Source: Candidatus Auribacter fodinae
GTDB lineage: Bacteria > Auribacterota > Auribacteria > Auribacterales > Auribacteraceae
Length of the DNA stretch: 44,104 bases
NCBI GenBank assembly: GCA_003599815.1
Contig: QZJZ01000030.1
Coordinates: 1 to 44,104, forward strand
Direction of reading: 5' to 3'
Position numbers and translations under genes: made by a program. Below are positions 529-27,166 of the stretch, one piece after another. The notes beneath the pieces are model-generated. The model was not told where the DNA came from. It worked only from the letters and a program-made list of their open reading frames with translations, and did not search any database. The number at the start of each line of letters is the position of its first letter. The first letter of the stretch is position 1.

Positions 529-822
529 CTATATTAAAAAATAAATCCTTATAAGATGAATTGCTACGTATATTAGAAAGTACATCAAAAATTCCCATAA
601 AATGTTCTTTTTGGTATACTCTCCTTTTACGATTAAAGCATAAATTACCAGAGACAATGTTGTGACTGGTAATAACCATATTACGGAAGCTATAACAAAA
701 AATATAACATGACCCATTTCATTAAATGGTCCAACATAATATAAGACAAATTGCATAAAGGTACAGAACAGGATTGCAGGAATGAAGTTAATTAATATTC
801 TATATATAGCTTTTTTTATCAT
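529..822 (-). CDS. Small multi-pass membrane protein, candidate immunity to the RHS lipase tip
   Basis: The product is about 97 residues and very hydrophobic. Three to four membrane spans can be drawn (around ILINFIPAILFCTFM, VIFFVIASVIWLLPV, TLSLVIYALIV and the C-terminal FLMYFLIYVAIHLI). No family is recognised. The start is placed at the ATG at 822-820, which overlaps the RHS stop codon as ATGA. The AGGAGG at about 834-839, inside the last RHS codons, is about nine bases from this ATG but only three from the alternative ATG at 828. The overlap predicts translational coupling to the RHS gene. Position directly behind a polymorphic toxin tip, small size and AT-rich composition are what immunity genes of such loci show. 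The immunity role is inferred from position only. Confidence 0.6.
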   Translation of the reverse strand: MIKKAIYRILINFIPAILFCTFMQFVLYYVGPFNEMGHVIFFVIASVIWLLPVTTLSLVIYALIVKGEYTKKNILWEFLMYFLIYVAIHLIRIYFLI

Positions 823-1545
823 GGACATCTTCCTCCTTTGACTGAATAACTAGTATTTTGAAGAGCAGTTTTTACTCCAGAAGAAAAGACATTTGGATCA
901 TTAAATTTGCTATGAGATACAAATGGGTCCGAACCTGTCTCAACTTGAATATTTTGAGCACCGGGAATTTCTCTTCTGGCTGGTCCCACTTCAAATTGAT
1001 TTACCGATTGATTATCCGCCGCACTTAACGGGATATTATAGGAAGTATTGGAAAAAATGGAAGATTGTGCAGGAACAGCATATTGCTTGGGTAAAGCATC
1101 TCCTCCACTGATCTGCACCATGTCTGATGTATCGTATAATTGAATATGCGTATCGACATTGTTCCTGTTATATTTAGTTAAGTAGTCATCTCTAACGGGT
1201 GTGCCTGCCGTGACAACGGTGTTAAATTTGGCACCATACGACGTTGATTCCATAATCACGTTTCCACCGTGACTATGTCCATATACCGTTATATGAGCAT
1301 TCTTATCCATTGCTCTTATTTGGGATGCCAGATCGTTCAAACCTTTAGCGCCGTCTGTTCTTGCGGCACTATTATTTGCCCCTGACCATATTAATGTCAT
1401 TGTATTGGTGTCCTTGACACCTAAAGTACTTTCAAGCTCTTTTACAAATTGACTATTGCCTTTTGACCAGTCAGGAATATTCATGTCGCTATTGCCATTT
1501 TTTATATTTGTTCCCGGGACTACGATAAGCCAGTTTTCCAATCCT
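819..1545 (-). other. Toxin tip: alpha/beta-hydrolase (lipase-like) domain of the RHS protein
   Basis: The tip follows directly after the DPLGL motif that ends RHS cores. It opens with a hydrophobic strand (WLIVVPGTN) and has the nucleophile elbow VYGHSHGGNV with Ser2875. An Asp at about 2925 (YDTSDMV) and His2995 (VSHSKF) complete a plausible Ser-Asp-His triad in the usual order. The pattern resembles class 3 lipase or phospholipase-type hydrolases used as antibacterial effectors. The DNA is AT-richer than the core just upstream (1,560-2,150), as expected for an exchangeable cassette. The membrane-lipid substrate is inferred, helped by the integral-membrane candidate immunity protein. Confidence 0.7.
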
Positions 1546-4500: not shown

Positions 4501-7500
4501 TCTAAGCTGGCTTTTCGGTTGTTATTTTTGTCATAAACAAACTGGCTTTTATTACCGAGCGGATCTACGGATTTGATAAGGTTATTGGCGTTATCATAAT
4601 AGAAAAGCTGAGAATTGCCGAGCGGATCAGTAACACGGATACGGTTGCCCCATTCGTCATATTCCATTTCCGTTTTGTTACCTTCAGGATCTGTTGAGGA
4701 TATCATGTTCCCGAAACGGTCATATTTGTAGCTGTAGGTTACTGCATCGGAAGTTCCGGCGGCAATGGTCTTTGAACTGATCAGGCCTTTGTTGTTATAC
4801 GTATATGTTTCTTTGTAAGTCGGCTGTGCAGGGTATGATTCGTTATCAGGGAAATAGGTATACCTTTCCTGAGCTGTAAGAGCACCGTTAAAATATGTTG
4901 AGCCATCATCGTATGTATACATTGTTTTGGTGTCTTCGGGATCAATAATCGTCGCGACTTTATTTTTACGTATCGGATCAGTGTCACTCGCGTATGTGTA
5001 TGTGGTAACTTCATTTTGATTTACAGTAACAGTATAGATTCTGTTGTACGTATCGTATGCGTAGTTCGTAACCGTTCCGTTTGGATCTGTGACGCTTGTC
5101 AGGTTGCCGTTGGCAGCCCATACTCTGGTGGTTGCTATATTAAGGGAATCTGAATCGAATCCTTTTTCTGTTGTTGAAATCAGGCGCAATGGATTTTGAC
5201 GCCCGGGCGCTTTGGGTATGGAATAGAATCCTACATCGTCTACAGAACCGTTATTGCCTGTATGATGCGTTAACTTTAATTGAGCTGAACCAGTTCCGGA
5301 TATCAAAGTAGTGGCAGTAACATTACTTTCCCTGTGAACAAGCAATCCATTCAGATACAGGGATAATTCGTTTTTCGCATCATCTAATATGACGGAAAGG
5401 TGATACCAGTTCATGTTGCTGTGACCACTGGAGGTTACTGTTAACGTTTTTGTTGCAAAAGCGGCAGTAACAGTTAATGAGTCTGGTGTTACCGGAGTCA
5501 ATTTGATGGTATGTGATCCCTCACTATAAATAGTGACCTGAGTTGTATCATTATCCGGATACTTAAACGAGAATTCTATGGTTTGGATAGCGTCCATAGT
5601 GCTTACAGGAACATTCAAATATGCAGAAGTACTGCCGAATACGCATGTTTGATCTGTGTATGTTAATCCTGACCCCGTTGCGGAAACAGCCTGGTTTGAT
5701 GCTGAATTGCTAAGGTTGCTGTCATTAAACGATAATATGCACTCACTATTTTTCTGGTTAAGATCTTCGAATTTGTATTCGGTTGTAGTTTCATATATGG
5801 AGCCGTTATCTTCATATATGGAATTATAGACGGTGTTTATTATTTCTCCTGAGGTAGTGTTGAGTGAGCCGTAAGCCATTCTGGATGCGTGTTTAGGGTT
5901 CGCATCAAACCCCATGGACATTCTTTGCTCGATGACTTGTTCGTCATCATAAATATTCTCAAGAATTCGGTTTTCGGGTTTGATTATGCGGCATAGATTA
6001 TGGGTGAGATAACCATCCTCAGAGCGGGCATATTCATATTGCGTTACCTTTCCCGCAGGATCGATTACTTTTACAAGGTTGAGAAGGTTATCATAGAAAT
6101 ATTGAACTTCGCGTTTATCGGACGAAGTAATCTTTGAGACGCGTCCTTCTCCCTCGTACTGGAAATCCACGTAACTGCCGCTTTTATTAGTGATGCGTTT
6201 AGGTAATCCATATCCATTATTATTGATATCACCTTCGTTATCATCATAGTATTCATATTTTAGATAATTGCCGTTCAGGTCTTCTGTTTCGGTAAGATAA
6301 AGTCGTTCTTTAACGACTTCACCATCTTTCATATGTTTCGCATATACAAATGTCTTTTTTAGGCCTGTATACGAATGATATACAAATGTTCCTGTTGCTT
6401 TATAAAAAACAATCTGGTTCCCGAGATAACTGGAAGATGCACCTACACCTGAGTCGGAAAAATTGGCAAGTTCAGGATTTGTCGCCAGATCCGGTTTAAG
6501 TGTCACTGTAGTATCATTATCAGAATAATAATTATATTCGATAACCGATCCGTCATATTCTGTGAGCCCTAGTACCATTGATTCTGGCTTAAGAGACTCA
6601 TTATCAGGATCATTAGCTAAATCCAAAGCAACAATGTTTGCCCAGAGATAGTAATTCAGGTTCAGCGTCCATCCGTATCCGATAAAATCGAATGATTCCT
6701 GTTGAGAAGAATAATTTCGTTTAATAACAATTGGCATGGTTCCCGGAATTTCAACATCAGTAGCTTCAGCAAGCAATTCACCGGTACGGACATCTACAGG
6801 ATCACTTGCCTGATTTATTTTGTTATTATTTGTTGGCGTTTCGGCAGGTTTAAATTCATGTCCAGCATATTGCGTACTGGTCTGTTTAGTCTCTGTTTGC
6901 TGGAAGACTACAGTGTTAGTTTGTTCCTTTTTTGTATAATTTCCAGGAGAAGAGGTATAGCTTTCTAGTATATTACCAATGGATTCCCATGAGCCCGGTG
7001 TATCCGACTTAACTGTACTGGTTACGTTATTAGATATTCCTGTTTGTTCTGCACTAGACGTTTCTAGATGTCCTTTAGATACAAGGGTTGATTCTGATTT
7101 ATAGCTGATTTTTTGTTGAATATGTCCGTTGGATGATCGGTGAACATCATAGTTTGATGAACTCGAAGAAGAAGAGGAAGATCCTTGAAAACCATTAAAT
7201 GAATCTTGATAAATATATGTTGTGTTTAAATTTATCGATGGTCTTCCACCATTAATTTGTTCACCGCTACCATTTAAAATAACATACCCAGTTCCTGTGG
7301 TTGTTATGATTATATAACCTGTACCAATAGAGACGCCTGCTTCACTTTCGTTAGTAAGTCGTTTAGGTATTAAAAAAATGTCATTTTCTGTTCCTGCTTC
7401 TTGGAAATGATTGTAAATGAAAGTGTAATCAACAACGTTATCGTTGTCAAAAATGCCTAATAAGCCACCTTGGCTATCAACATAATTTGTATAATTTGCT

Positions 7501-9896
7501 CCATTAATATAATATAATTGATTGTCAGAGGCCTCTTGTGCCAATCTTAATGTTTTCATTGTAGATAGAGCATGAATAGAGAACATATCCTTGAAAACTT
7601 TATGTTCATGTGCAGAGCCTGTCATCCCTCTAATTAACCCGAAATTTGCTTCACTCTGTTGATTATTTAAGCGCGACCAAGATAATTTTTTATTATACAC
7701 ATCTAATTTATATGTACCACTTGTCCAAATATTATCAACTTGAATAAGTTGCTGAACCATCATAGCGTTAGAGAAATAAGTAAAAGGCAAAATGTTCATT
7801 ACATTTGCTAATCGTTCCATAGAAAAATCATAGTCGCAGTAATACTGGACACCGATATTATACAAAATTTCTGTCACAGGCGCTTCTGAACATTCATTAG
7901 CCGTACCAGCATCAATTTTCTCTTCCAAATTTTTTAGTTTCTTAAATCTGGATGCGAGCAGTGATGTGGGGGCTTTATTATAATCAACAAAAATGGCCAC
8001 AAACGCACCAGTGGCTTCGAAAATAGACGTTTCTTCTGGAAAATAAGAAGTTTCGAAATTTTGTGGAACTCTATACTCGACAATAATATTAAGTGTTTCT
8101 CTTTCTGAACCATTGTCGAAAAGTTTTTGTGGATTTGTATATGTTGGACTATTAAAAACTTCTCCCTCGATACTCAAGAGCGGTATTAAACAAGCAACAT
8201 TTTGATCATTATTATATTCATAAGTTATCTTTTCAAAATAGTTATTGCCGCTGTTTCCCGTTGTCTCTTTTACATCGTATTTAAGTGCAATGCGTTTATT
8301 ATATAATGTGCACAAAGGGCGTATAAAATCAACAGAAGTGCCGCTATTGTTTTTTAGTAGTTTTATAGAATCATTATCTTTATCACAAACATTAATACGA
8401 ATTTGCCATTGTTCCGCTAAAGGGATAGAAGGTCGTTCATTACTAATGGAACGAATTAATATATCTGGAGACAATTCTGTCGGTAAGACATTAAGGTGCT
8501 GAGCAATGAGATCCCTTCTAAAAGTAAGGTCATCGATAGTATATTGCGGGTATTTTTCAGAAAGAAATGCTTTAAGATTCTCGAAATAAAGGTCATCAGG
8601 CATTTTTTCCACAGGAGCATGGATGTATTGATTAAAAAAGTCCAATGCATTGACCGACATATGTTCCGGTAATTTTACAGGAAAGACATTTTCATATTTC
8701 TTGTAAGCAGGATCTAAAGGTATCCAGCTAGATTCACCATTTTGTGAATAATGCACTTTATCCGAATAGGCTTCCGTATCAGCATCAACAATCGAATGTC
8801 CTCTTGTTGCGCTATATGGCATATATGCTTCAACCCAGACATGTTTCATAGATCTCTGAGTGGAACCCAAAGTAGTGCTATCAGTAATAAAATCTTTCAC
8901 GTAACCAGATACAGAGACTGTTTCGAAACCAACATCATAGCCTGCAAAACTATATAGATATCTCTTTTGCCCTGCATCACACTCAATTGAAACAGAGTCC
9001 TCGCCATTAAGGTAAAGAATAACATCGTTCCCAGATGTATAAACTGCGATCTGATATTCTTGGTTATTATTGATCCCCACACTATCGTATTCACCAGTTT
9101 CTAAATTTTCTAAAATAAGCCAAAGGTTTTGAGGTGTACTTCTATAACAGTATAAAACGATACCATCGTCTTCTTGATCACAATCTTGAAAATCGCCTAA
9201 TGTGTTCGAAAGCATCCAGATACTGATCAAAGGATTTACATCCTGTTCACAATTAATTTTAAATGAAAAACTATGTCGAAAATCACCAATCCCACCTTCC
9301 CCTAAATCTTTATAAATATAACAAGTGGTATTTGTATAAAGAAAATCTGTAAATGTTATCTGGTTATTCGATATTTGTACTGCATTGGTATCATTTTCCA
9401 TCTCAAACGTAGTATAGTCTTCTATATTACCTGTGAGATCCATAAAACTCAGAATTTCATTTGCAGTAACCTCAGACTCAACACCAATCCAGTTTAAAAG
9501 ATCATCATCTTCCAATTCAATATATCCTGTTACATAGCGACATGGAATACCGATTGCCCGATACATGGCTATGAGTAAGGACGATTGATCCCATGAGTTT
9601 GCGCGTTTTTCATATAGCGTACCGATTGCGCCGAGTTTGGAACCATAATACGGTACATAATCAATATTATTTTTAACCCATTCGTAAATTTTTACCGGAT
9701 CATGATTTAACTCTGCGACTTTTTGCTTGATCTCTTCGGTAATTATTGTGTCATCTGTTTCAAGAAGGTCATTGGTAGCATAGGACTGATCTTCTTTCAT
9801 ATATGCTGGTGTAATGGCCTGTGACACTGAACATTGCAAGCATATAAACAATACAGGTAGGATAAAAAGCATCACCTTGGTATTCAGTTTGGACAT
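819..9896 (-). CDS. Giant secreted RHS/YD-repeat polymorphic toxin with lipase-like C-terminal tip
   Basis: A 3,025-residue protein. A Sec signal peptide occupies residues 1-27 (cleavage near SQA), with AAAGGA at normal spacing before the ATG. Residues about 45-400 form a transglutaminase-like fold: RAIGIPCRYVTGY, then H352 in HVWVEAY and D395 in WIPLDPAY, but Ser101 stands where the catalytic Cys is expected. A LamG-like beta-sandwich is inserted at about 174-340. A linker with nine consecutive serines lies near 900-910, DUF6531 (DPVDVRTGE) near 1027-1066, and a second LamG-like domain near 1385-1560. YD repeats span about 1590-2770. The RHS core ends at ARYYDASLGRFISRDPMGF and DPLGL. The tip, about 240 residues, is an alpha/beta hydrolase with GHSHGG. 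The gene lies 35 bases behind the upstream giant gene, so the two are probably one operon. It is expected to be exported and to encapsulate its own toxin. Confidence 0.9.
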   Translation of the reverse strand: MSKLNTKVMLFILPVLFICLQCSVSQAITPAYMKEDQSYATNDLLETDDTIITEEIKQKVAELNHDPVKIYEWVKNNIDYVPYYGSKLGAIGTLYEKRANSWDQSSLLIAMYRAIGIPCRYVTGYIELEDDDLLNWIGVESEVTANEILSFMDLTGNIEDYTTFEMENDTNAVQISNNQITFTDFLYTNTTCYIYKDLGEGGIGDFRHSFSFKINCEQDVNPLISIWMLSNTLGDFQDCDQEDDGIVLYCYRSTPQNLWLILENLETGEYDSVGINNNQEYQIAVYTSGNDVILYLNGEDSVSIECDAGQKRYLYSFAGYDVGFETVSVSGYVKDFITDSTTLGSTQRSMKHVWVEAYMPYSATRGHSIVDADTEAYSDKVHYSQNGESSWIPLDPAYKKYENVFPVKLPEHMSVNALDFFNQYIHAPVEKMPDDLYFENLKAFLSEKYPQYTIDDLTFRRDLIAQHLNVLPTELSPDILIRSISNERPSIPLAEQWQIRINVCDKDNDSIKLLKNNSGTSVDFIRPLCTLYNKRIALKYDVKETTGNSGNNYFEKITYEYNNDQNVACLIPLLSIEGEVFNSPTYTNPQKLFDNGSERETLNIIVEYRVPQNFETSYFPEETSIFEATGAFVAIFVDYNKAPTSLLASRFKKLKNLEEKIDAGTANECSEAPVTEILYNIGVQYYCDYDFSMERLANVMNILPFTYFSNAMMVQQLIQVDNIWTSGTYKLDVYNKKLSWSRLNNQQSEANFGLIRGMTGSAHEHKVFKDMFSIHALSTMKTLRLAQEASDNQLYYINGANYTNYVDSQGGLLGIFDNDNVVDYTFIYNHFQEAGTENDIFLIPKRLTNESEAGVSIGTGYIIITTTGTGYVILNGSGEQINGGRPSINLNTTYIYQDSFNGFQGSSSSSSSSSNYDVHRSSNGHIQQKISYKSESTLVSKGHLETSSAEQTGISNNVTSTVKSDTPGSWESIGNILESYTSSPGNYTKKEQTNTVVFQQTETKQTSTQYAGHEFKPAETPTNNNKINQASDPVDVRTGELLAEATDVEIPGTMPIVIKRNYSSQQESFDFIGYGWTLNLNYYLWANIVALDLANDPDNESLKPESMVLGLTEYDGSVIEYNYYSDNDTTVTLKPDLATNPELANFSDSGVGASSSYLGNQIVFYKATGTFVYHSYTGLKKTFVYAKHMKDGEVVKERLYLTETEDLNGNYLKYEYYDDNEGDINNNGYGLPKRITNKSGSYVDFQYEGEGRVSKITSSDKREVQYFYDNLLNLVKVIDPAGKVTQYEYARSEDGYLTHNLCRIIKPENRILENIYDDEQVIEQRMSMGFDANPKHASRMAYGSLNTTSGEIINTVYNSIYEDNGSIYETTTEYKFEDLNQKNSECILSFNDSNLSNSASNQAVSATGSGLTYTDQTCVFGSTSAYLNVPVSTMDAIQTIEFSFKYPDNDTTQVTIYSEGSHTIKLTPVTPDSLTVTAAFATKTLTVTSSGHSNMNWYHLSVILDDAKNELSLYLNGLLVHRESNVTATTLISGTGSAQLKLTHHTGNNGSVDDVGFYSIPKAPGRQNPLRLISTTEKGFDSDSLNIATTRVWAANGNLTSVTDPNGTVTNYAYDTYNRIYTVTVNQNEVTTYTYASDTDPIRKNKVATIIDPEDTKTMYTYDDGSTYFNGALTAQERYTYFPDNESYPAQPTYKETYTYNNKGLISSKTIAAGTSDAVTYSYKYDRFGNMISSTDPEGNKTEMEYDEWGNRIRVTDPLGNSQLFYYDNANNLIKSVDPLGNKSQFVYDKNNNRKASLDANGGMMSYLYDYSDSLLGVMDPLSQTALIEYDIFGNKIFVVNQKGNFTEFEYDGANRLSKQINFVEDGNDYIQYETHYTYDNNNNVLQKETIENINGDLNTIAKSTFSYNHRNQVTTQKSYVYASKYTKITYEYDAVGNKTREYYYDNDTLQSYVSYVYSTEWNGAYLLKSLTHYDTDNDGLRSESYTYDKRGNVISKTNPNGVVTEYEYDDNDRLIKETVNMTTSDDDDIVTEYKYDIAGRLIEVIDPNGHSTRMEYDRNGQLVKSIDPEGRVTQFEYDAMGNKTKEISPTGKITVFVYDALNRLTEVHDEEGNVSYIVYDELGNKSVVIDADNNVTEYEYDELNRITRTVDPLGYEILYEYSYLDNDSLDNDGFFAKTMQAQINESDYRESTWVTDWLGRTVRQIDGPAANQKITDFSFDHINNITQKITPNADTITFTYDDLGNLITASCATDFTVNAEFAYDNDGNRLSMADSTGMTSYKYDNDGRLIIKIAPDNKTVTYAYDKAGNRSKMTFTGINRAGDFVPDNDTLYPSAPQTVTYYYNDANQLTEIYLNGASVPVASYDYNYGGLLDTKTYANGTAVSYSYDALDRLIELTNGDISSQRYEYDVVGNKTRVITERDNQSYVAAYRYDRKNQLIEEVFHDTNSTIGKHSYTYDGTGNRTAMTDIYGAASVENTYTYNTLNELTTLVKDTTTSGLTQLDIWGLYQGLGGSVTVDENAAVINDETGVFMHENYSHNSGAPITIEATKDCESQSVTLTLDADSDACYTYDNNGNLIMKSQNGRQTIFSWDALNRLTDVHYLDNESVVRHEKFMYNGNGERVYVIVDGSLTAYVYDGAQCIAEYDSAGVVTSQYVHGMGLGADVGSMLCSETRGTNFSATTRYFCYNWRGDVIDIADSSGDAVNWYRYDAFGTVIDQSGSADNDMLFSSKRFDASTSLSYFGARYYDASLGRFISRDPMGFIDGPNEFVFVGNNPILLIDPLGLENWLIVVPGTNIKNGNSDMNIPDWSKGNSQFVKELESTLGVKDTNTMTLIWSGANNSAARTDGAKGLNDLASQIRAMDKNAHITVYGHSHGGNVIMESTSYGAKFNTVVTAGTPVRDDYLTKYNRNNVDTHIQLYDTSDMVQISGGDALPKQYAVPAQSSIFSNTSYNIPLSAADNQSVNQFEVGPARREIPGAQNIQVETGSDPFVSHSKFNDPNVFSSGVKTALQNTSYSVKGGRCP
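1600..5120 (-). repeat. YD/RHS repeat array
   Basis: This stretch encodes many copies of the roughly 20-residue YD repeat (forms such as YDELGNK, YDALNRLTEV, YEYDELNRITR, YDNDGRLI). The repeats form the beta-spiral cocoon of RHS proteins. The DNA copies are diverged and show no long identical tandem units, so the similarity is mainly at protein level. Confidence 0.9.
1925..2136. repeat. 212-bp direct duplication, copy 2 (inside the RHS core)
   Basis: This is the in-gene partner of the orphan segment 298-509. It encodes the core stretch around residues 2587-2657, upstream of the toxin tip, so recombination between the copies would delete the end of the core, the tip and the candidate immunity gene. 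Confidence 0.85.
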
Positions 9897-14804: not shown

Positions 14805-17801
14805 ATGACATCGAATCTTATTGAATCAATAGTAGAGTCTGCGTCATCATGGCTTATTTCAGGTTCACAGTTAAGCGGTAAGACAGGTGTCCTTCTTGGA
14901 TCCATAGCGCGTCTTGTTGCCTCAGAAAAAACGCAACCGGAGAATATTCTTTTTTTGCCCTGTACCGCAGGGCAAACATCTGCCGTTAGACAGAGACTGT
15001 CTGCCCTGACACCATTTCAGTACGGATATGGGCCGTTACATATCAGCAGATGCGGTGATTTCGCCCGCCGGATTGTCCTGAAAAACGGTATATATCATAA
15101 CGAGATAACACACCCACTGCGTGTCGATCTGTTTCAGTCTTCTAAAAAATATCTGGTGAAGCATATACTTACACAGTGCGCTCTGCCGGATTCGATTGGT
15201 TCCGCACACTCCCAATCACGGTTGGTTGAAGCAGTGGTTGACGGCATAACTTTTCTTGAAAATACAGGTAACATACCTCCAAAGTTTAAGCAGGGCAGTG
15301 AGATGGACTGGTTCAGGGAAGTTTTCGACCGGTATCGGCAATTATGTACAGAGCGTGGATTTCTGTATCGTGAACGTGCTTTGGATATTGCCACTAACTT
15401 GTTGATGTCAAAAGAGAAACTGCTTTTTCCACCTATACGTTTTATATTTGTGGACGATTATGAGAACCTGACACCGCAGGAATACGCTTTCATCCAAGCG
15501 TTATCAAAATATAAAGAGGGAACTGCCTGCATTCTGGCTGGCAATCCGGCGAATAGGATGCTGGCGTACAGAGGGAGTGTTGTTGTCAGGCATGCCAAGC
15601 TGATAAGTGATATGCAAATTCCGGAAAAACAAGTAGTGCAACTACCGGAAACACGTCGCAAATTTGCTCTGCAGGAAAGCCTTCGATGTCTTATGAACAA
15701 GGCGGGGCTGGAAGATGACGAACCCGGTTTATCTCTGGTTCCCGACGAGGACCAATCGGTACATGCCGTTTTTCTTGAACGCAGATACGATGAACCTGTA
15801 TTTATTGCCAGCAGGATACAATCGTTACTGCGTGACGGATATTCCCCCCCGGAGATAGCTGTCTTTCTGCCAAACTTATCCAAGGATGCGCACTTGTATT
15901 ATACGGTATTGACTCGAGCCGGAATACCCTGTCAGGTTCAATCGGGCACTGCATTGCACCTCACTGCGGTGTATCAGCTTGTTGAATGTGTGACGGCTCT
16001 CATTTTTGATCCGGATAATGACAACAGGGCGCGCCAGTTTGTACGATCAACTGTGTTTGGCGTAAAACACGACGAAATCGGACGTATGGAAATGATGGCA
16101 GGACGGGCACACCTGAGTCTTTTTTATGGATATGTACGATATGCGGATCATATATCTGATCGCGTTGTTCGCAAGCGGGTTATGGATGTACTGCTTTTGA
16201 TGCGAACTATGCAAAATAATCATGGGAATGTGGCGTTCCATGTATTTATTGAGCGATTGTTCAGTTGCTGTGACCTTTTTCGTGCGGAGATAATGAGTAA
16301 TTTAATAGAAGCCAATGCCGCTCAGATTTTGCTGTCGAGCTCTCAATTTTTTAGCGGATTCAAAACGGCGCTGGATGGAATTGAGCCGTTGCTAGATGAA
16401 TATGAGACCTTTAAACAATGGATTATACAACACTCCGTGCAGGGAATATCAGTGTCTGATCCCCCTGCAGTGAGGATTCTATCAGCGAATTCGGGTGAAT
16501 CGTTTTGTTTCCGTGCTGTTTTTGTCTGCAATGTGAACAATGCCGCGTTTCCTGAAAATGAAAGTGTGTGTATACCTTTGATACTCCGTAATGCCTCTAT
16601 TCGTGCCGATCAGTTTGTCGTTTCATCCAATAGTATCTACACCAATATAATAGCACGTTGTACAGATCAGCTTTTCCTGCTTTACAATCGTGAGGGAGGC
16701 GAAATGGCGCCTTTTTTTCAGTGCCTGAGCCGGAAGCCCTTTGCGAGAGTTTGTGAAAATGGTTCAGTTTTCTGTGTGTACGATAGGCCGGAGTATCTTA
16801 CTGATGAAAAATCACGTGTGCTATACATTCGGAAGTCCTTGCTTAAAATGAACGAGCCGGAGAAAGATCACATTGTCAAAGAAATACCAATCCCTTTTGA
16901 TAATTTTAGCATTAAGAAGCTGGCTTTTTTTCAGCGTGTTTCGGTGCCTGTCGATTATGTTTTCTCTGCTACTCGTTTTGATGATTATTTACGATGCCCA
17001 TGCCTCTTTTATTACCGCCATCTGCTCGGTATCGATACATTTGAAGAAACTGCGCGGGCATTATTTGGGAAACTGATGCATTCTGTTCTGGAAATCCTGC
17101 ATGGCACGTATCCGCACATTGCTGTTTTGCCCGAAGATCAGCGGGAAGATCTGCTTTTGTTCTGTCAGGGGATAATAAAGCGTATCCTGCCTGCTCATAG
17201 CGGGATAAACGATTTTACCAGAATGATTATAATGTCGCAGGCGGTTCATTGTATTGAGCGGTATCTTGATGCGATGACAGAAGAACTGCCGCTGAATATT
17301 GTTGCTGTTGAAAAGATCGTGAATTTCAGGCTAGATGATATACCTTTTACCGCAAAAATCGACCGGATAGATACACATGCATCTGGCGGCGTACGCATTA
17401 TTGATTATAAAACCTCTCTAACGGATGAGCATACAGAAATCAAACTGAAGAACATGGTAATGCCGACGGGCAAAGAAACCAGAGTGCAGTTGCCTGTCTA
17501 TTTTTTCGCTGTGCGGGAATTGATGCAGAATGCTCCTTCAGAACTGGGTATATTTTATTTGCAGGCAAAGTCAAAAGAAGGAGATCATATTTTTCATAAA
17601 GTGCTGTTGCAAATTGTGTCTGATAGTAACCGAAAAAGCCTGAGCAGGGATGAACTGGAAAGTATAAAGCAGTTTATACTTTCTGAAATTCACACTATGC
17701 AGAGCGGATTTTTCGTTATGCCTCCGCCAGCTCAGAACTGTCGTGATTGTGACTATGACTCTATATGCAGTCTGAGGAGGGGGTGTAATGCCGGCACTTA
17801 A
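14805..17801 (+). CDS. addB: AddB-like degenerate UvrD-fold / PD-(D/E)XK nuclease with Fe-S motif
   Basis: A 998-residue protein with the layout of AddB, the second subunit of the AddAB double-strand-break resection complex. The N-terminal P-loop is intact (GSQLSGKT, residues 20-27). The helicase-like motifs are eroded: motif II is DDYEN (217-221) instead of DEFQD, and the motif III region reads GNPANRMLAYRG (246-257). The C-terminal RecB-family nuclease has YLRCPCLFYY (C731), GKLMH (H759), KIDRID (D853) and IIDYKT (D867, K869). C979, C982 and C988 with C731 match the 4Fe-4S staple of AddB, Cas4 and Dna2 nucleases. No strong ribosome binding site precedes the ATG. The 3' end overlaps the next gene by 14 bases, so the two subunits are probably coupled and form a complex. 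Sequence divergence is large, so addB means AddB-like. Confidence 0.75.
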   Translation: MTSNLIESIVESASSWLISGSQLSGKTGVLLGSIARLVASEKTQPENILFLPCTAGQTSAVRQRLSALTPFQYGYGPLHISRCGDFARRIVLKNGIYHNEITHPLRVDLFQSSKKYLVKHILTQCALPDSIGSAHSQSRLVEAVVDGITFLENTGNIPPKFKQGSEMDWFREVFDRYRQLCTERGFLYRERALDIATNLLMSKEKLLFPPIRFIFVDDYENLTPQEYAFIQALSKYKEGTACILAGNPANRMLAYRGSVVVRHAKLISDMQIPEKQVVQLPETRRKFALQESLRCLMNKAGLEDDEPGLSLVPDEDQSVHAVFLERRYDEPVFIASRIQSLLRDGYSPPEIAVFLPNLSKDAHLYYTVLTRAGIPCQVQSGTALHLTAVYQLVECVTALIFDPDNDNRARQFVRSTVFGVKHDEIGRMEMMAGRAHLSLFYGYVRYADHISDRVVRKRVMDVLLLMRTMQNNHGNVAFHVFIERLFSCCDLFRAEIMSNLIEANAAQILLSSSQFFSGFKTALDGIEPLLDEYETFKQWIIQHSVQGISVSDPPAVRILSANSGESFCFRAVFVCNVNNAAFPENESVCIPLILRNASIRADQFVVSSNSIYTNIIARCTDQLFLLYNREGGEMAPFFQCLSRKPFARVCENGSVFCVYDRPEYLTDEKSRVLYIRKSLLKMNEPEKDHIVKEIPIPFDNFSIKKLAFFQRVSVPVDYVFSATRFDDYLRCPCLFYYRHLLGIDTFEETARALFGKLMHSVLEILHGTYPHIAVLPEDQREDLLLFCQGIIKRILPAHSGINDFTRMIIMSQAVHCIERYLDAMTEELPLNIVAVEKIVNFRLDDIPFTAKIDRIDTHASGGVRIIDYKTSLTDEHTEIKLKNMVMPTGKETRVQLPVYFFAVRELMQNAPSELGIFYLQAKSKEGDHIFHKVLLQIVSDSNRKSLSRDELESIKQFILSEIHTMQSGFFVMPPPAQNCRDCDYDSICSLRRGCNAGT

Positions 17802-20800
17802 CCCTGAACAGAAACTCATTGTTACTGCGCCTGCCAATCAGCCGCTGCTTATCACTGCGGGAGCAGGCACAGGTAAAACCCGTACGCTTATTGAGCGGTT
17901 TGTGCATCTTTACACAACGCATAAACTTAAACCGGATTCTATTCTTCTGCTTACATTTACACGTAAAGCGGCGGCTGAGATGAAAGACCGTATTCTCTCC
18001 ATGTGCGACCTCAGTCTGGCTGATCGTGAGCAACTCTGGGTGCATACCTTTCATTCTTTCTGCGCACGCATATTGACTGAAGAAGGCCTTGCAGGCGGGC
18101 AAGATAGCTTGGAGGCGATTGATACGGTAGAAAAACAGTTGCTGTTTGAGGATGTTTATACTGAACTGATGCAGTTACAGGGTGCATTTTCTTCTTTGGT
18201 TAATGAATTGTATATTATTAATCATATTTCTGGTTTCGAAACCTTTATGAATTTTTCCAGCACATTTATAGACAAGTTACGAGATCAACTGATCGAGCCG
18301 GCTGAATTGAAATCATGGATAGATAATGGCGATACGAACAGTCGGTCAATCCTGTTAAAACGCATTCTTTATATGCTTTACGTCCGATTTGAGGAGAAAC
18401 TGGAAGAACTTGGTGCGAGGGATTATCCGAAACTCATTATGGATGCCGTTAAGCTGTTGTCGTCGAATGAAGCGGTCAGGAAGAAGTATCGTGATAAGTT
18501 TGTTTTTGTGATGGTTGATGAGTTTCAGGATACAAACAGCGCTCAGTTTACATTGTTGAAATGCATTGCCGCGGAAGGCATAACCAATACCACTGTGGTT
18601 GGTGATCCCCGGCAGTCAATATACCAGTGGCGTGGGGCTGATCCTTCCAATATGAACTGGTTTCTGCAGACACCCGGTGTGAAGAAGGTGGAGCTAATCA
18701 GGAATTACCGTTCATACGGTGAGATTCTTGACTGTGCTCATTACTTACTGCAGAGTAACCCGCATTACAGAGGATATCGGAAACTTATTCCTGAACAAAA
18801 ACAGTATAAGGCAATTGCACCGGTCATTCATCTGTGCGGGGATTATTCGGTTGAACCATCGTTTGTGGCATCTCATTGTGCCTCATTGATTATGCGTGAA
18901 GGCTGTAAGCCGGATGACATTGTCATTCTTTTCAGGAAAATAAAAAATCAATCCGTACGTTATGAAACCGAACTATCTGCTTACGGACTTCCGTATTATA
19001 CCAGCGGCAGCGGTTCATTTTTTCAGCGTTCTGAAGTTCAGGATCTTTTTTCTTATTTCAGGGTTATCGCCGATTCGTTTGATAATGAAGCATTAATCCG
19101 TATTCTGATGCAACCGCCCTACAACATAGGTGACGCAGATATGTATGAGATGGTCCGACAGGCGAAAAAGGCTCATTCCTGTCTTCTGGAAATGCTGAAT
19201 ACCGAATCATCGTCTGATTTTTGCAAACGATTGCACTCATTTATTACGAGGATGGTTCGTATTACTGACTTAAAAAAATTGTTTTTCAGCATTATTCAGG
19301 AAACATATTTCGCAGAACTTCATTTAACTGAACCGATTTCTTCGGCGACATACAAGGATAGCGCCGCGCGATTTCTTGCGATTATTGAATCGTTCCAGAA
19401 ATATCATCAAGGGGAAGGGATATCACGGTTTGTCGCTTATTTTAAAAATGCCGCTTTTTCGTCTGAAGACGATGAAGAGTTGGAACGGATACAATCTCAA
19501 GGGTGCATACGGCTGATGACCTTACATAAAGCAAAGGGTTTGGAATTCCCTGTTGTTTTTCTTGTTGATCTGAAAAATTTTTATGATGGCAAGTCCAGTG
19601 TGGAAGCCGAATTCAAACAACAGGTGAGAGAACCTTTTCTTTGGGATGAACAGTCCCGCTCGTTCAGGTTTAAGAATACCGAGGAATACGATGCAGTTAA
19701 ACGAAACATCGTTGGCGAGCGTATGGAAGAGCTTTGGCGCCTTTATTATGTGGGAATAACACGGGCACAAGATCAGGTATACATTTCAGGGCGCGGGCTG
19801 GATACTATAAGGGCCGCTTTGGCATTATCTTCGAATGGGTTTATGGAGCATGACAGCATACCGCTAGTTGAGTACCAGCCGGAATCGGATACCTGCATGC
19901 CCAATATACATTCAGGAGTTGAAATCATAAAAAAACAGATTGAAACTCCCGTCACTTATCCACAATATAATGATCGGACGTTAGTTCTGAATTGTTCAAC
20001 ACTGCATACTTTTGTGGAATGCCCATATCGTTACTATCTTAAAAACATTGTTGGTGTTGCTGAATGTCGTGATAAGAAGGAAGATAGTATTCAGCATGCC
20101 GTGCTGGGAACGATTGTGCACGAAACGATTGAAGAATATCATGCGTTAGAAGGAATACTATCTATTGAGGAAATAGCTCTTCGAAAAATCGATGAAAGCG
20201 GAATGCCTGAATCAGTTTTACCAAAGGTTCTTGTGACTGATGCATTAGATTATTATACACAAACAAATCTGGCTTCAAAAAATGCGCAACCATTTGAATC
20301 AGAATATAAATTTACATTGATTGAGAAAATGCACGACAAAAATGTTGTCATAAATGGGGTTGTCGATAGGTTGTATCACTCTGATGGGCAATGCCGCATT
20401 GTTGATTTTAAAACAGGGATGCGAGGTACTGTTGATGATTACCGATTCCAAATGACGTTATATGCTCTGGCGTGCCATCGTTTATTCGGAGCAAAAAATG
20501 TCGTCGCTGAATTAGTCTTTTTGCATCAGAAGCGAATTGAAACGTTTGAAATTTCAGTGAACGATATAAGGGCTTTTTATGCATCGGTGATGGATATTGC
20601 GGACCGAATCCTGAGAAAAGATTTTTCCCCCTGTAAATCCGATGCATGCTGGTTTTGTGGTTTCGCGTCGTGTGAATATCGAATTGAAAGCCAGCCGTTG
20701 CAGGTAAATAAATGGCATGATGAGGAATCGTATTATTCATTTTATTACGATCTTGTTCAGGCTGAACAGGATTATGTTATTGAACAGGTATCGGCCGATA

Positions 20801-22374
20801 CACGGGTTAAAATTCAATTTGACAGTGTGCGTCCGGCTGAAAGCGGTTTTATAGTCAAATACAACCGTGACCCGTATGGATTACGATTACATGCCGGAGA
20901 TTTTATTCAGCTTGTATCATTGGTTGCTGATCCTTTAACGGTTCAGGTGAATGAAGTGGGGCTATCCTGTTTTATTCTGGCAATAAACATAATACGTGAA
21001 TGGAGAGACTATACTCATTGTGTATTGTCTGCAAACCCGTTATCATTTATTCGTATGAAAGACCATTTATTTTCGTTTATGGTTTCTCAGATGCCATTAA
21101 AGAACATAGTTCTAGAACATTCGCTACCTGAATTGGTACCCGCTTTACCCCATCATGATGGAAGCTCGCTGGATTGCTATCAGCAATATGCCGTTGAATG
21201 CGCAAAGAGATGTAGTGACTGCCTGATAATACATGGCCCTCCGGGTACTGGAAAAACCCTTGTTATCGCTCATATCGTTAAAAATGCCATTGATAGCGGT
21301 AAGAGGGTACTGGTATCCGCTTATACTAACCGCGCTGTTGATGGCATTATACTTAAACTCCTTGATTTATATGCGGATAAGGAAAATATTAGGAATGTGT
21401 CCGCTCGACTTGGAAAAGAATCTCTGGTTCACCCTGATGTGCGCGGGTGTTTGATTGATGAAGAAATGAGCGATGAGCGCATAGCTATGGATTTGTTGCA
21501 TAAGAATCTTGTTGCAGTCACTTCTGCAGGAGTTCGGGATCAATTCTTCTGTGAGTTTTTCGACATTGCGGTAATTGATGAGGCAGGGCAGATGCCTGAA
21601 CCTTTTGCATTAGGTATTGTGAATCATACCAGGTCGGTTATTTTGGTTGGTGACGACAATCAGTTGCCGCCGGTAATCGTCAGCGATTATGCCCGGAAGA
21701 ACGGCTTGGAAGTAAGCCTTTTTGAACGGTTGAAAAGTTTTCTTGAAAAACGGCGTCCTGAATCGGTTATCATGCTTCAACGGCAATACCGGATGAACGA
21801 GACGATTATGCGGTTTGCTTCAGATGAGTTTTATGAAGGGAAATTGCAGGCTGGTTCCGATGCTGTGGCACATCGAATGCTCTCTAATATTGATATATCA
21901 CGGTGTGGTAAAAAGTGGGTTTCTGAGGTTATCAAACATGACAAGAATATTGTAATGATAGAATTAACTGATTGTTTAAAAGATAGTTGCGATATTGTTG
22001 AGTGTATTTCTGAAATAGTAGTCCATGGTTTTCTGAAAGTTGGCATTAATCCGTCACAAATAGGTGTGCTCTCACCTTTCAGGGAAGAAGTGCAGGCTCT
22101 TAGCCGATCTTTGAGTATTGATGAGCTTGATATAGATACCATTGACCGTTTTCAGGGGTCAGATAAAGACGTGGTTATTCTTTCTCTTGGCTCTGATACG
22201 TCCGCACACAGCATGGATCGAAGAAGGATCAATGTTGCATTAACGCGGGCAAAATCAAAATTAATAATTGTCGGTAAAAGACCGGATGAATTATCATCGT
22301 CATTATATACGGGTTTATGCTCTTATATTCAGAAAAACGGATGTGTTATAGAGTGGCGCAAAGGGATACTTTAG
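17788..22374 (+). CDS. Triple fusion: UvrD-type helicase, RecB/Dna2-type nuclease and Dna2/UPF1-type helicase
   Basis: A 1,528-residue protein starting at an ATG with AGGAGGGGG upstream, inside the end of the addB-like gene. Residues 1-665 are a UvrD/AddA-type SF1A helicase: GAGTGKT (25-31), DEFQD (244-248), GDPRQSIYQWRG (272-283), HKAKGLEF (580-587), VGITRAQ (655-661). Residues about 730-965 are a PD-(D/E)XK nuclease: C745 in VECPYRYY, H778 in GTIVH, D860 in VVDR, D873 and K875 in VDFKTG, and C954, C957 and C962 as the Fe-S trio. A beta-rich segment follows (about 970-1115). Residues about 1125-1528 are a complete SF1B helicase: GPPGTGKT (1150-1157), DEAGQ (1264-1268), GDDNQLPP (1288-1295), QYRMN (1333-1337), DRFQG (1453-1457), VALTRAK (1483-1489). 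Residues 730-1528 alone have the layout of eukaryotic Dna2. All motifs of both motors look intact. Confidence 0.88.
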   Translation: MPALNPEQKLIVTAPANQPLLITAGAGTGKTRTLIERFVHLYTTHKLKPDSILLLTFTRKAAAEMKDRILSMCDLSLADREQLWVHTFHSFCARILTEEGLAGGQDSLEAIDTVEKQLLFEDVYTELMQLQGAFSSLVNELYIINHISGFETFMNFSSTFIDKLRDQLIEPAELKSWIDNGDTNSRSILLKRILYMLYVRFEEKLEELGARDYPKLIMDAVKLLSSNEAVRKKYRDKFVFVMVDEFQDTNSAQFTLLKCIAAEGITNTTVVGDPRQSIYQWRGADPSNMNWFLQTPGVKKVELIRNYRSYGEILDCAHYLLQSNPHYRGYRKLIPEQKQYKAIAPVIHLCGDYSVEPSFVASHCASLIMREGCKPDDIVILFRKIKNQSVRYETELSAYGLPYYTSGSGSFFQRSEVQDLFSYFRVIADSFDNEALIRILMQPPYNIGDADMYEMVRQAKKAHSCLLEMLNTESSSDFCKRLHSFITRMVRITDLKKLFFSIIQETYFAELHLTEPISSATYKDSAARFLAIIESFQKYHQGEGISRFVAYFKNAAFSSEDDEELERIQSQGCIRLMTLHKAKGLEFPVVFLVDLKNFYDGKSSVEAEFKQQVREPFLWDEQSRSFRFKNTEEYDAVKRNIVGERMEELWRLYYVGITRAQDQVYISGRGLDTIRAALALSSNGFMEHDSIPLVEYQPESDTCMPNIHSGVEIIKKQIETPVTYPQYNDRTLVLNCSTLHTFVECPYRYYLKNIVGVAECRDKKEDSIQHAVLGTIVHETIEEYHALEGILSIEEIALRKIDESGMPESVLPKVLVTDALDYYTQTNLASKNAQPFESEYKFTLIEKMHDKNVVINGVVDRLYHSDGQCRIVDFKTGMRGTVDDYRFQMTLYALACHRLFGAKNVVAELVFLHQKRIETFEISVNDIRAFYASVMDIADRILRKDFSPCKSDACWFCGFASCEYRIESQPLQVNKWHDEESYYSFYYDLVQAEQDYVIEQVSADTRVKIQFDSVRPAESGFIVKYNRDPYGLRLHAGDFIQLVSLVADPLTVQVNEVGLSCFILAINIIREWRDYTHCVLSANPLSFIRMKDHLFSFMVSQMPLKNIVLEHSLPELVPALPHHDGSSLDCYQQYAVECAKRCSDCLIIHGPPGTGKTLVIAHIVKNAIDSGKRVLVSAYTNRAVDGIILKLLDLYADKENIRNVSARLGKESLVHPDVRGCLIDEEMSDERIAMDLLHKNLVAVTSAGVRDQFFCEFFDIAVIDEAGQMPEPFALGIVNHTRSVILVGDDNQLPPVIVSDYARKNGLEVSLFERLKSFLEKRRPESVIMLQRQYRMNETIMRFASDEFYEGKLQAGSDAVAHRMLSNIDISRCGKKWVSEVIKHDKNIVMIELTDCLKDSCDIVECISEIVVHGFLKVGINPSQIGVLSPFREEVQALSRSLSIDELDIDTIDRFQGSDKDVVILSLGSDTSAHSMDRRRINVALTRAKSKLIIVGKRPDELSSSLYTGLCSYIQKNGCVIEWRKGIL

Positions 22375-22646: not shown

Positions 22647-24542
22647 TCAGGCGATTACTTGTTTGATAATATTGCGCAGGTCATTAATGTTAAATGGCTT
22701 TGCGAGATAATCGTTGTCGATTGAATCAAGAAACTTATTGGTTTCAGGATCGTAGGTATCGCCAGTGGTGAATACCATTTTTTTCTCCAGCCCGGGAAAG
22801 TTATCCCGTATCCAGTAAAACAGGCTGGGCCCGTCCATGCCCGGCATGCGTATATCAGCGAGTATTGCATTGTAATTTTTTTGTGAGATCCTCGTTTTTG
22901 CCTGAAGCCCGTTTTCAGCAATATCAACCGAGTAGGTTTCTTCCAGAATATCTTTCATGACGTCACGCAGAGTTTCGTCATCTTCAATAATAAGTACTTG
23001 TGAAGCAGATTGTTCTGACGCTGGCAAAAGGTTATTTTCACGTTTGGCCGCAGAGGCAGAATCGGAAAATGGTATCGAGATGGTCACTTCAGTGCCTTTA
23101 TTCGCTTTGGTGTTGATCTTAATGGAACCATTATGGCTTTCAAGGAGGGTATACGCTATGCTTAATCCAAGCCCTACGTTATCCTTGTTAGATTTAGTAG
23201 TAAAAAACGGGTCGAAAATCTCGCTTTGAATATCTTCCGGTATACCGTTTCCTGTATCCACAATGGAAACGATACACATATTGTCGCTGGCTTTAGATGA
23301 AATGTATAGTTCGCCTCCAGTTAATTCCATTGCTTCATAACTATTGTTGAGAATATTCAAAAGCACTTTTGAGATTTGTTTTTGATCAATAAACAGAGGG
23401 GTAATCGCGGTACTTAATTTTTTGGTTATTTTTATATTTTTGCTCTGAAATTTATAATTCAGCAACGTTAATGTGTTATTTATTAAATCATTGATGCAGA
23501 TCGATTCTTTATGCTGTCGCGTTGTTCCCGGTGAAAAGTAAAGCAAGGATTCTATGATGGACTTCATGCTTTGAGCAGAGTCTTCGATATTTTTCATCCA
23601 GTTAAGACTGCGTTGATCGGTTGTTTTTGTCATAAGAAGCTGAGTATATGCGAGAACAGGACCGAGCCGGTTATTGAGTTCATGAGTTATGCCTGTCAGC
23701 AATTTACCCAGTGATGCGAGTTTTTCTGTTTGTATAAGTTTTTGTTCCAGCTCAACATTACGCGTAATATCGTTGATAAGCAGTAAAACGTGGTCGCCAT
23801 AGTCGGAAGATGTTTTTAGCAAATCAATATCAAGGTGCTTTTTCTGATTTTTGCGGTTGATATAACTTATTTTTGAAAACGAGATATGTTCGGAATTCTC
23901 GCTGACTTTTTTAATATGATCAATAAGTGATATATCAGAAAGAAATTCAGGATCGAACAGTTCCATTATTTTCTGCCCGATCAGTTCAGACGGATCAACG
24001 AAAAAGAAGTTCTGGCATTCCGAGTTGGCGTATGATATCTCCATCATTTGGTTGATGCCGATGACAGCATACGGTATGGTGTTGAGTATATTTTCGAAGT
24101 ATTCCTTTAAAGTCTGTACTTTTTTCTGAACTTCCTCTCGATGTTTCTGCCTCTGGTATTTATCAATGGATTTTAGCAGAATTACCGGCAGGGTCGAGAG
24201 ATATCCTTCTATTTTGAGAAGGTAATCGTATGCTCCGTAGTTAAGCGCTTCGTGGATGGTATCTTTGTCGTCTGAAACCGTCAGGAATATGATCGGAACT
24301 TCACATTGCAGTCCATGAAGCGTGTGCAATATTTCAAGTCCGTTCAACTGCGGGAGCATATAATCAACAACGAGTGCGTCATAGATGTTAGGATTTCCTT
24401 TAATGCGGTCAAAGAAATCCTTTCCGGTATAAAAAACATCAACTTCATATAACGACATGAAGTCTGTTAATGCTTTTTTTGCGAGAAATGTCTGATCTAC
24501 ATCGTCATCAATTAAGGCAATAAGAAATTTGTTTTCGCTCAC
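22647..24542 (-). CDS. Hybrid histidine kinase: receiver-PAS-HisKA-HATPase-receiver
   Basis: A soluble two-component protein of about 631 residues with no membrane segment. A receiver domain lies at the N-terminus (LIDDDVDQ, LVVDYMLPQLNG), then a linker helix and a PAS domain (about 150-260). The dimerisation/phosphoacceptor motif is ITHELNNRLGP, the ATP-binding domain has NNSYEA, DTGNGIP and GLGLSIAY, and a C-terminal receiver (IIEDDETL, ADIRMPGMDG, LAKPF) ends the protein. The order fits a phosphorelay in which the first receiver modulates the kinase. I prefer the GTG at 24,542 as start: AAAGGTGA lies six bases before it, whereas the GTG at 24,551 overlaps that site. The gene is monocistronic and convergent with the lipoprotein gene. 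No dedicated output partner is adjacent. Confidence 0.85.
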   Translation of the reverse strand: MSENKFLIALIDDDVDQTFLAKKALTDFMSLYEVDVFYTGKDFFDRIKGNPNIYDALVVDYMLPQLNGLEILHTLHGLQCEVPIIFLTVSDDKDTIHEALNYGAYDYLLKIEGYLSTLPVILLKSIDKYQRQKHREEVQKKVQTLKEYFENILNTIPYAVIGINQMMEISYANSECQNFFFVDPSELIGQKIMELFDPEFLSDISLIDHIKKVSENSEHISFSKISYINRKNQKKHLDIDLLKTSSDYGDHVLLLINDITRNVELEQKLIQTEKLASLGKLLTGITHELNNRLGPVLAYTQLLMTKTTDQRSLNWMKNIEDSAQSMKSIIESLLYFSPGTTRQHKESICINDLINNTLTLLNYKFQSKNIKITKKLSTAITPLFIDQKQISKVLLNILNNSYEAMELTGGELYISSKASDNMCIVSIVDTGNGIPEDIQSEIFDPFFTTKSNKDNVGLGLSIAYTLLESHNGSIKINTKANKGTEVTISIPFSDSASAAKRENNLLPASEQSASQVLIIEDDETLRDVMKDILEETYSVDIAENGLQAKTRISQKNYNAILADIRMPGMDGPSLFYWIRDNFPGLEKKMVFTTGDTYDPETNKFLDSIDNDYLAKPFNINDLRNIIKQVIA

Positions 24543-24613
24543 CTTAATCACCTTTGTAACAATTTTTTTAGATCGGTTACCAAAAATGATATTTTAGTAA
24601 AAAAATATTTTGT

Positions 24614-25042: not shown

Positions 25043-27166
25043 GTGACAGCTATACACCGGAAACCGATTATATTCCTGTGGATGTGTGTCACTCTTTCTT
25101 TTTTTCGCTGTTTTGTCACTCCTGATACGGATCCTTTCTATATCTTATCGTTCTTTTACATAATCTCTGTGTTTTTTCTGTCCGGATGGTGTTTGTTTTC
25201 GTGTTTTTCTGAGTATATGGAAGCTGGTGATGGTATTGAGCATTTTGTTGTCAGTATTCTTTTATCTGTCACTATAACAGGATTACTATCGCTTACACTT
25301 GCCTGTGCATATATATTTTCGCTGTTCGGCGTATGGGCGGGAAATATGACAGTGCTTATTTGTGCGTATGTTTTTCATAGAAAATCGAATAAAAAATTAT
25401 TTCGGTCGTTCTCCATCACAAGGCGGTCAATCGCATTTCTACTGTTCCTTGTTTGTTTCTCGCCGTTATATCTTCGTCCCATGGAATGGATTATTGGGTT
25501 GCGTGACCCGGGCGTATATGCCAACACCGCTAAGTCAATCGCAATAAATGGATCGTTATCTTTTAGTAATGATCCGACTAAATATATTGACCCGCAAACG
25601 AATGCCTCAATATTTGCGTATCGATACGAAAAGGACTCAATGTTATTGCCCGGATATTATATTAAAAACTTTCAGTCCGGGTTGATTCAACCTCAGTTTT
25701 ATCATTTATACACTGCTTTGCTTGCAGTCGGATACTCGGTTTTTGGTTTTTCAGGAGTATTATGGCTGACACCGCTTCTTGCTTTAGTGAGCATGACTAT
25801 GTTTTTCTTTTTCATAAAAAGATTTACGAACTAGAAGTCAGCATATTTCAGCTTGGGTATTCTGTTGATTTCCGTGAATCAAGTGTGGTTTGCCCGTTAT
25901 TTTAACTCTGAGTTGCTGATGCAGTTTTTTGTATTCGGGTCAGCGCTGGTTTTAATGTGTAATGAGCTGAACCAATATTTTCGGTATATTGGAGCCGCGG
26001 TTGTTTTAGGATCCGCCTTTTTTGCCAGAATAGACGCTTTTCTTTTTTTGCCGGGGATACTTGTACTTATCCCGTTACTTTCCGAAAAGCGTCAACTTGA
26101 TAAAAGATTGATTTTTGTACTTGTGGCTGTTTTATTCTTTCTCCTTTCGATTGTATATGGAATTTCATACTGCCCGATGTACATTAAACCGAGGTTATTG
26201 GATCGCCTGAATAACGGGCTGTTTATCTGGTGCGGCGTTTTTCTGGGCGCAGGCATTTTCTGGAGCTATTTTCGAGGGCTTGGCAATACGATGGAAAAGG
26301 CAATCGGTTACGGTCCCTTTGTTTTAAATATTTTAAGCGGTATTTTGCTTTTATATGGATTATTAAAACGCAGATTCGTGGGTTCTGTATGGATTAGTTT
26401 ATATTTTCCGCATGCTGCTATTGCCGCTGGACTGGCAGGATTGGCGATCATTGCATGGAAAAAACGAAAAAACATGGGTGAGGAACGGATGATACTCATT
26501 TTTATGACCCTGACTTTTTTTGTGTGGTCTGTCATATTTTTGAGGGATCCTCAGATCCAGCCGGATCATTTCTGGGCAATCAGACGTTTTACAGCGTTTT
26601 ATATACCTTTTTTACTCTTTGGATTTGGTGCAGTATTTGGCCTATCTTATAACGGCTTGAAAATAATAAAAATTATGTTTCTCAGCATATTTTTCTGTTT
26701 TGCCGGATGGTATGCGTACCGCCATATACCCCAGTATAAACTTCACGGTTGCGGTGGAATACAGCAAACAATAAATACAATAAGCGAAGTTTTTCCTGAT
26801 AAATCAACAATATTTTTTATTGAGCCGCCTCCCGTATTATTTATTACGCCAATTTTTTTTAATACCCTGCATGAGAAGGAGAAAACTATCGTTCCTGTTG
26901 CGCATCCTACTCAATTTTATGCAGGGGATGCCGGTGTTGAAGGCATTGTACGCAATGAGCTTGAACAAGGAAGGCGTACGTTTATTGCATCCTACAAAGA
27001 CAAATATGCCGAATGTAATTTTAAGAATCTGCAGGCGAGGCATTATAAAACGATACCTATCATTCTTCCTTATGCTGAAATGACTAGAGATAGGCTCCCT
27101 TTCCGGATGAGAGAATCGTTTTATTCTATGATAATTGATGAACTTTTCCTGACTGAGAAGAATTAG
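25043..27166 (+). pseudogene. GT-C type membrane glycosyltransferase interrupted by an in-frame TAG
   Basis: Two consecutive open stretches, 25,043-25,834 and about 25,853-27,166, are in the same frame. They are separated only by the TAG at 25,832-25,834 and join into one protein of 707 positions. The first part has several membrane helices and the loop GLRDPGVYANTAKS, resembling the acidic first-loop motif of GT39/ArnT-like transferases that use lipid-linked sugars. The second part continues with further helices (VLGSAFFARIDAFLFLPG) and a soluble C-terminal end. The start is GTG with AAAGGA seven bases upstream. The second half has no ribosome binding site, so it is unlikely to be a separate gene. 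Either a nonsense mutation, a sequencing error or stop-codon read-through explains the structure. Substrate unknown. Confidence 0.8.

Follow-up and report, generated by a model that had tools for sequence, protein, structure and literature searches.

A reading frame of Candidatus Auribacter fodinae that appears to join two different helicase motors to a nuclease raises the question of where such a protein comes from and what it would do in the cell. The frame lies in a stretch of 44,104 nucleotides (the window), and an earlier note made from the sequence alone had drawn attention to it.

Domain architecture of the fusion protein

The frame runs unbroken on the forward strand from an ATG at 17788 to a stop codon at 22374, with a product of 1528 aa. 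Pfam matched UvrD-helicase (residues 4-292, E 3e-73) and UvrD_C (302-667, 5e-44) in its N-terminal half, PDDEXK_1 in the middle (734-961, 2e-28), and AAA_11 (from 1128, 6e-32) and AAA_12 (1307-1498, 1e-37) in its C-terminal half, all well over cut-off. The two helicase motors and the nuclease described in the earlier note were found where it had put them. The features of the locus are collected in Table 1.

Table 1. Features of the two-gene locus in the window (residue numbers are those of the 1528-aa fusion protein)
Feature	Position	Strand	Basis
Partner gene, 998 aa, degenerate UvrD-like motor and PDDEXK_1 nuclease	14805..17801	+	Pfam, alignment of three orthologues, motif scan
Overlap of partner and fusion genes, 14 bases	17788..17801	+	
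Fusion gene, 1528 aa, UvrD-type SF1A motor, nuclease and Dna2-type SF1B motor	17788..22374	+	
SF1A motor, residues 1-670	17788..19797	+	Pfam, NCBIfam scores, motif scan
PD-(D/E)XK (PDDEXK_1) nuclease, residues 731-966	19978..20685	+	Pfam, orthologue alignment, profile comparison
C745, first of four predicted Fe-S cysteines	20020..20022	+	Invariant in three orthologues; pattern as in PMC7430649
C954-C957-C962, other predicted Fe-S cysteines	20647..20673	+	Alignment, motif scan
Spacer, residues 967-1125, most likely SF1B 1B beta-barrel and stalk	20686..21162	+	Profile of three spacers
SF1B motor, residues 1126-1500, Dna2-type	21163..22287	+	Pfam, motif scan, family scores

The SF1A motor carries Walker A (AGAGTGKT, 24-31), motif II (DEFQ, 244), GDPRQ (272), LHKAKGLE (579) and TRA (658), and the SF1B motor carries GPPGTGKT (1150), DEA (1264), GDDNQ (1288), QYR (1333), QGSD (1456) and TRA (1486). 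Genome searches recovered full-length orthologues, at about 39-41% identity, in two further genera of this family (G001, 40% in the search, whose copy is also public as JAHDNF010000003.1, and G002, 41%), and we aligned them with the protein of the window genome (G000; three draft assemblies, 1568 columns). Every motor and nuclease motif is intact in all three. The nuclease residues H778, D860, D873-K875 (DFK, 873-875), Q888 and Y892 are invariant. The four-cysteine iron-staple pattern across the nuclease was likewise confirmed at the residues named before (C745, C954, C957 and C962): the first three are invariant and the fourth is present in each orthologue, with a spacing of CxxC-x4-C or CxxC-x5-C. 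An Fe-S cluster can be predicted from this family pattern, which is not specific to Dna2, being found also in AddB and Cas4 (PMC7430649).

Identity to the window protein was 42-43% for the SF1A motor, 35-39% for the nuclease, 26-27% for the spacer and 47% for the SF1B motor, and from this conservation every domain of the fusion appears to be under selection. The appended SF1B motor is the best-conserved domain among the three genera, unlike what would be seen in a relic.

Kinship of the N-terminal motor and the nuclease

Among the NCBIfam models, the N-terminal motor scored highest with PcrA (TIGR01073, 333 bits), followed by Rep and UvrD, with AddA at 206 and RecB at 156 bits. The AddA models TIGR02785 and TIGR02784 gave 206 and 179 bits, below their cut-offs of 708 and 861, and the protein does not end as AddA does, 560 more residues (the SF1B helicase) following motor and nuclease. 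In a tree of SF1A motors the fusion is placed away from the AddA proteins found in the same phylum, on long branches with weak deep support. A same-phylum AddA as the direct ancestor of the N-terminal half, which we considered, finds no support in this tree, the deep order of which is uncertain.

The Pfam model of the Dna2 nuclease (PF08696) had no match in the fusion at 0.01 and did match a bacterial Dna2-like control (L151). A profile built from the three fusion nucleases recovered AddB/AddA proteins as well as fusions of UvrD with a nuclease in Patescibacteria; the Dna2-like protein L174 was not among its matches. The PF08696 result and the profile comparison exclude a eukaryotic-like Dna2 nuclease, and judged by its sequence the enzyme is kin to those of UvrD-nuclease proteins (AdnAB/AddAB), not to Dna2. 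The earlier note had seen AddA and Dna2 sharing one nuclease. This is right as layout and wrong as ancestry, since the motor is nearest to PcrA/UvrD/Rep and the nuclease is not that of Dna2; rather, a helicase-nuclease would have acquired a Dna2-type motor at its end.

Two further UvrD-like proteins of about 1060-1080 aa, in G001 (L144:1790-4966) and G002 (L145:1950-5183), have a related frame in G000 (L038), close to the end of contig C91. As candidates for a second AddA they were rejected: the one scanned with Pfam has a PHP domain and a UvrD domain and no nuclease match. Their N-termini match TIGR00375 at 130-136 bits, under the cut-off of 327, and they are possibly a damage-specific endonuclease joined to UvrD. 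Separately, an Ozemobacteraceae contig carries tandem UvrD-plus-nuclease genes (L042:1764-8196; 1104 and 1044 aa), a pair that resembles AdnAB in a lineage other than Actinobacteria.

The C-terminal motor and the spacer

The SF1B motor of the window protein scored 173 bits with mouse DNA2, 130 with SMUBP-2 and 125 with NAM7/Upf1, and a profile including the orthologues gave 248 against 190. The order of these scores is informative because a control, the bacterial IGHMBP2-type helicase L125, gives the reverse (DNA2 177, SMUBP-2 312). As for a RecD-type motor, TIGR01447 (recD) reached 51 bits with a cut-off of 310, and RecD2 70 with a cut-off of 500. By sequence score, then, the C-terminal motor is of Dna2 type, and the Dna2 layout that had been noticed from about residue 730 onwards holds for both the linear order (nuclease, spacer, SF1B) and the kind of motor.

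A beta-rich spacer between nuclease and motor had also been proposed. The spacer is there, and it seems to be part of the SF1B motor rather than a separate element. Searched as a profile, the three spacers match L125 in its N-terminal region at 18.3 bits (best of 1000 shuffles, 3.9), with the pattern GD-V...FxRMxxxLxxF...LKxxxLE shared with IGHMBP2-type helicases. Since the match falls at the corresponding place in those helicases, the spacer is most likely the motor's own 1B barrel and stalk. Compared with the central region of the bacterial Dna2-like proteins L174/L151, it gave an hhalign probability of 4%. A structure model of residues 690-1528 (839 aa), built on a three-row alignment, is of low confidence (pLDDT 54.6), too poor to place domains, and leaves the spacer without a clear fold; its best Foldseek match, across nuclease and motor, is Dna2 (5eaw, E 1e-28), with nearly the whole target aligned, which we take only as a supporting hint.

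The bacterial Dna2-like proteins used here are themselves of varied build. L151:901-4965 (G227) encodes 1355 aa in which a protein kinase domain is combined with a nuclease of Dna2 type (PF08696) and an SF1B helicase of Upf1/Dna2 type. L174:1-2955 / L175 (G571) encodes a helicase-nuclease that matches PLuB_AAA (NF040671) over nearly its full length, scores well under the cut-off of that model, and is probably Bad-like.

An upstream partner gene with a degenerate motor

The earlier note overlooked that the fusion is the second gene of an operon. Directly upstream lies a gene for a 998-aa protein (Table 1), which adjoins and overlaps the fusion gene in all three genomes; the 14-base overlap in the window may couple their translation. 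Its UvrD-like region (residues 12-258 by Pfam) has a Walker A (GSQLSGKT, residue 20) that keeps the lysine. Its motif II reads DD, motif V (HKxKGxE) is absent from the three aligned orthologues, and the arginine of motif VI is lost in one of them, so that, like those of AddB and RecC, this motor has probably lost its activity and its role is probably structural. The nuclease (residues 720-988) is intact at H759, D853, D867-K869, Q895 and Y899, with four cysteines at 731, 979, 982 and 988. A structure model of the partner, also from a three-row alignment (pLDDT 41.2), was too poor for domain placement.

The partner is adjacent to the fusion and combines a helicase-like fold with a nuclease, as a second subunit of the AddAB/AdnAB type does. 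Since its likeness to AddB in NCBIfam is distant (26 and 29 bits with TIGR02773 and TIGR02786, under family cut-offs of 904 and 487), we base its assignment as an AddB/AdnA-like subunit on its position in the operon, the arrangement of its domains and the motifs that it has lost. It is this gene that would place the fusion in a resection complex, and it makes the finding stronger than first described. Partner and fusion are the only full-size proteins recovered by a PDDEXK_1 search in each of G000, G001 and G002, the one further match being a weak 278-aa frame in G002. In other families of the phylum, tandem pairs with the ordinary size and order of AddB and AddA were found in G006 (L147), G014 (L148) and G019 (L146).

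Comparison with known end-processing machines

Like RecBCD of E. coli, the two proteins would bring together a 3'-5' SF1A motor, a 5'-3' SF1B motor, a RecB-family nuclease and a partner whose helicase fold, like that of RecC, is probably dead. RecD, however, belongs to another SF1B family and forms a subunit of its own, whereas here a Dna2-type motor is fused to the nuclease subunit; and RecC is not known to have the nuclease residues or the cysteines, whereas the partner keeps both intact. The locus shares with AddAB its two genes, its two RecB-family nucleases and a subunit that combines a degenerate motor with Fe-S-type cysteines. It differs in the number of motors, AddAB having one (PMC5030094). 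Further differences are that AddA stops at the nuclease, that AddA of B. subtilis is not known to have the cysteines, and that the SF1A motor here is nearer PcrA/UvrD. As in mycobacterial AdnAB, both subunits have a UvrD-like motor and a nuclease, but AdnAB is without an SF1B motor, the partner motor here is degenerate, and sequence similarity to AdnA is weak.

Eukaryotic Dna2 and bacterial Bad have the same order of nuclease, spacer and SF1B motor, a four-cysteine nuclease and, by score, the same type of motor; unlike the fusion, they are without an SF1A motor, and the nuclease of the fusion is a PDDEXK_1 of the AddAB/UvrD-nuclease kind that PF08696 leaves unmatched. Finally, end resection in humans likewise combines helicases of the two polarities when DNA2, a 5'-3' motor joined to a nuclease, works with BLM or WRN, but there the 3'-5' helicase is a protein of its own and belongs to the RecQ family of SF2. 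We regard the fusion as a new architecture within a known kind of machine (RecBCD/AddAB/AdnAB), not as a new kind of system.

A model for DNA end resection

UvrD/PcrA motors move 3'-5', and there is precedent for a bipolar machine in RecB (3'-5') and RecD (5'-3'). The bacterial Dna2-like protein Bad runs 5'-to-3' (PMC7430649), and for human DNA2 paired with BLM or WRN, functional analogy to bipolar machines of the RecBCD type has been proposed (PMC5030094). With polarities predicted from these families, we think it likely that the operon encodes a RecBCD-like bipolar end-resection complex in which the fused Dna2-type motor takes the role of RecD.

The two overlapping genes would give the DNA-end-processing complex of the family, with the job of RecBCD, AddAB or AdnAB. 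Subunit 1 (998 aa) would contribute a degenerate motor and an active nuclease, and subunit 2 (1528 aa) two active motors. Of these, the UvrD-type motor would run 3'-to-5' along the 3'-ended strand of a broken end and the Dna2-type motor 5'-to-3' along the 5'-ended strand; since opposite polarities on opposite strands amount to movement in the same direction, a single chain would draw in both strands together, a task that RecBCD divides between RecB and RecD. The nuclease of subunit 2, which lies between the motors in the chain, might cut behind the UvrD motor, the strand fed to the Dna2 motor, or both; the other strand would fall to the partner nuclease, and RecA would be left with a 3' tail. 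Several steps of this model are inferred: the joining of the two proteins in one complex, the engagement of one end by both motors, the assignment of strands to the nucleases and the outcome in repair.

An alternative, which we judge unlikely, is that the operon is an AdnAB-like resection pair whose SF1B domain has a supporting role, as a clamp, as a loop-extruder or in clearing RNA or protein from the path of the complex, and is not a second translocating motor. In its favour, both subunits share the UvrD-plus-nuclease layout of AdnAB, and the nuclease is like those of UvrD-nuclease fusions; the Upf1/IGHMBP2/Dna2 clade includes RNA helicases, and in Dna2 the nuclease precedes the motor and inhibits its translocation (PMC7430649). 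However, the SF1B domain, with its motifs all intact, is better conserved than any other part of the fusion, and its sequence is nearer to DNA2 than to SMUBP-2 or Upf1, which are RNA helicases.

In our estimate it is somewhat more likely than not that the operon encodes a third, independently evolved bipolar end-resection machine of bacteria, with both motors and a shared nuclease in one chain, combining the solutions of AddAB/AdnAB and of Dna2 and replacing RecBCD/AddAB in this lineage. In that case bipolar drive would have been gained more than once, here by fusion of a different second motor. RecBCD is the textbook two-motor end processor, and the fusion lineage would be an independent natural experiment, in which the fixed tether makes the coordination of the motors testable within one chain. 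The fusion would also link bacterial end resection with the eukaryotic resection by Dna2 plus a helicase.

Distribution and genomic context

A junction profile running from the fusion nuclease to the C-terminus (A3) found full-length matches in the three genomes of the family (G000, G001 and G002) and in none of 41 genomes from the rest of the phylum. Overlapping samples of other families, several hundred genomes in all, gave no full match except in G384, which is the public copy of G001. In these larger searches scores were computed for the top few candidates of each genome, and the search of GTDB contigs covered the matches listed for short seeds, so that rare copies may exist elsewhere. The open-access literature yielded the bacterial Dna2-like Bad (PMC7430649) and no description of such a fusion; the earlier note, too, knew of no described system of this form.

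The operon is kept in all three genomes although its flanks differ: in G001 these are pur genes and a gene for a YgiQ-like radical SAM protein, and in the window a histidine kinase and fn3 and RHS ORFs. Its presence in every family genome examined, away from defence genes and as the only full-size RecB-family nuclease pair, lends little support to a role in anti-phage defence in place of housekeeping repair, which we hold to be very improbable. SF1 helicase-nuclease proteins are known in defence systems, and the best PADLOC matches were GajB and an RT-associated helicase for the UvrD part and MkoA for the SF1B part, but these matches are limited to single helicase domains. Moreover, no recognisable defence genes lie nearby, and the reading of the locus as a defence island found no support. 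The family genomes contain no other nuclease pair of the AddAB/RecBCD type, an A3 scan of 2.9 million viral contigs found no relative, and none of 72,556 plasmids had a record covering 80% of the fusion protein. That two neighbouring genes were joined by an assembly or sequencing error has a negligible chance, the window assembly being fragmented (105 contigs) but the independent G001 and G002 orthologues running full length without a stop through residues 1000-1125, where the earlier note had asked for a frame break to be sought.

Around the operon, the gene directly downstream of the fusion, on the opposite strand (22647-24551), encodes a hybrid kinase with PAS, HisKA, HATPase and response regulator domains. 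A 3025-aa ORF on the reverse strand (819-9896) combines a transglutaminase-like domain with RHS repeats, and two adjacent forward frames of 263 and 437 aa (25043-25834 and 25853-27166) are without a Pfam match.
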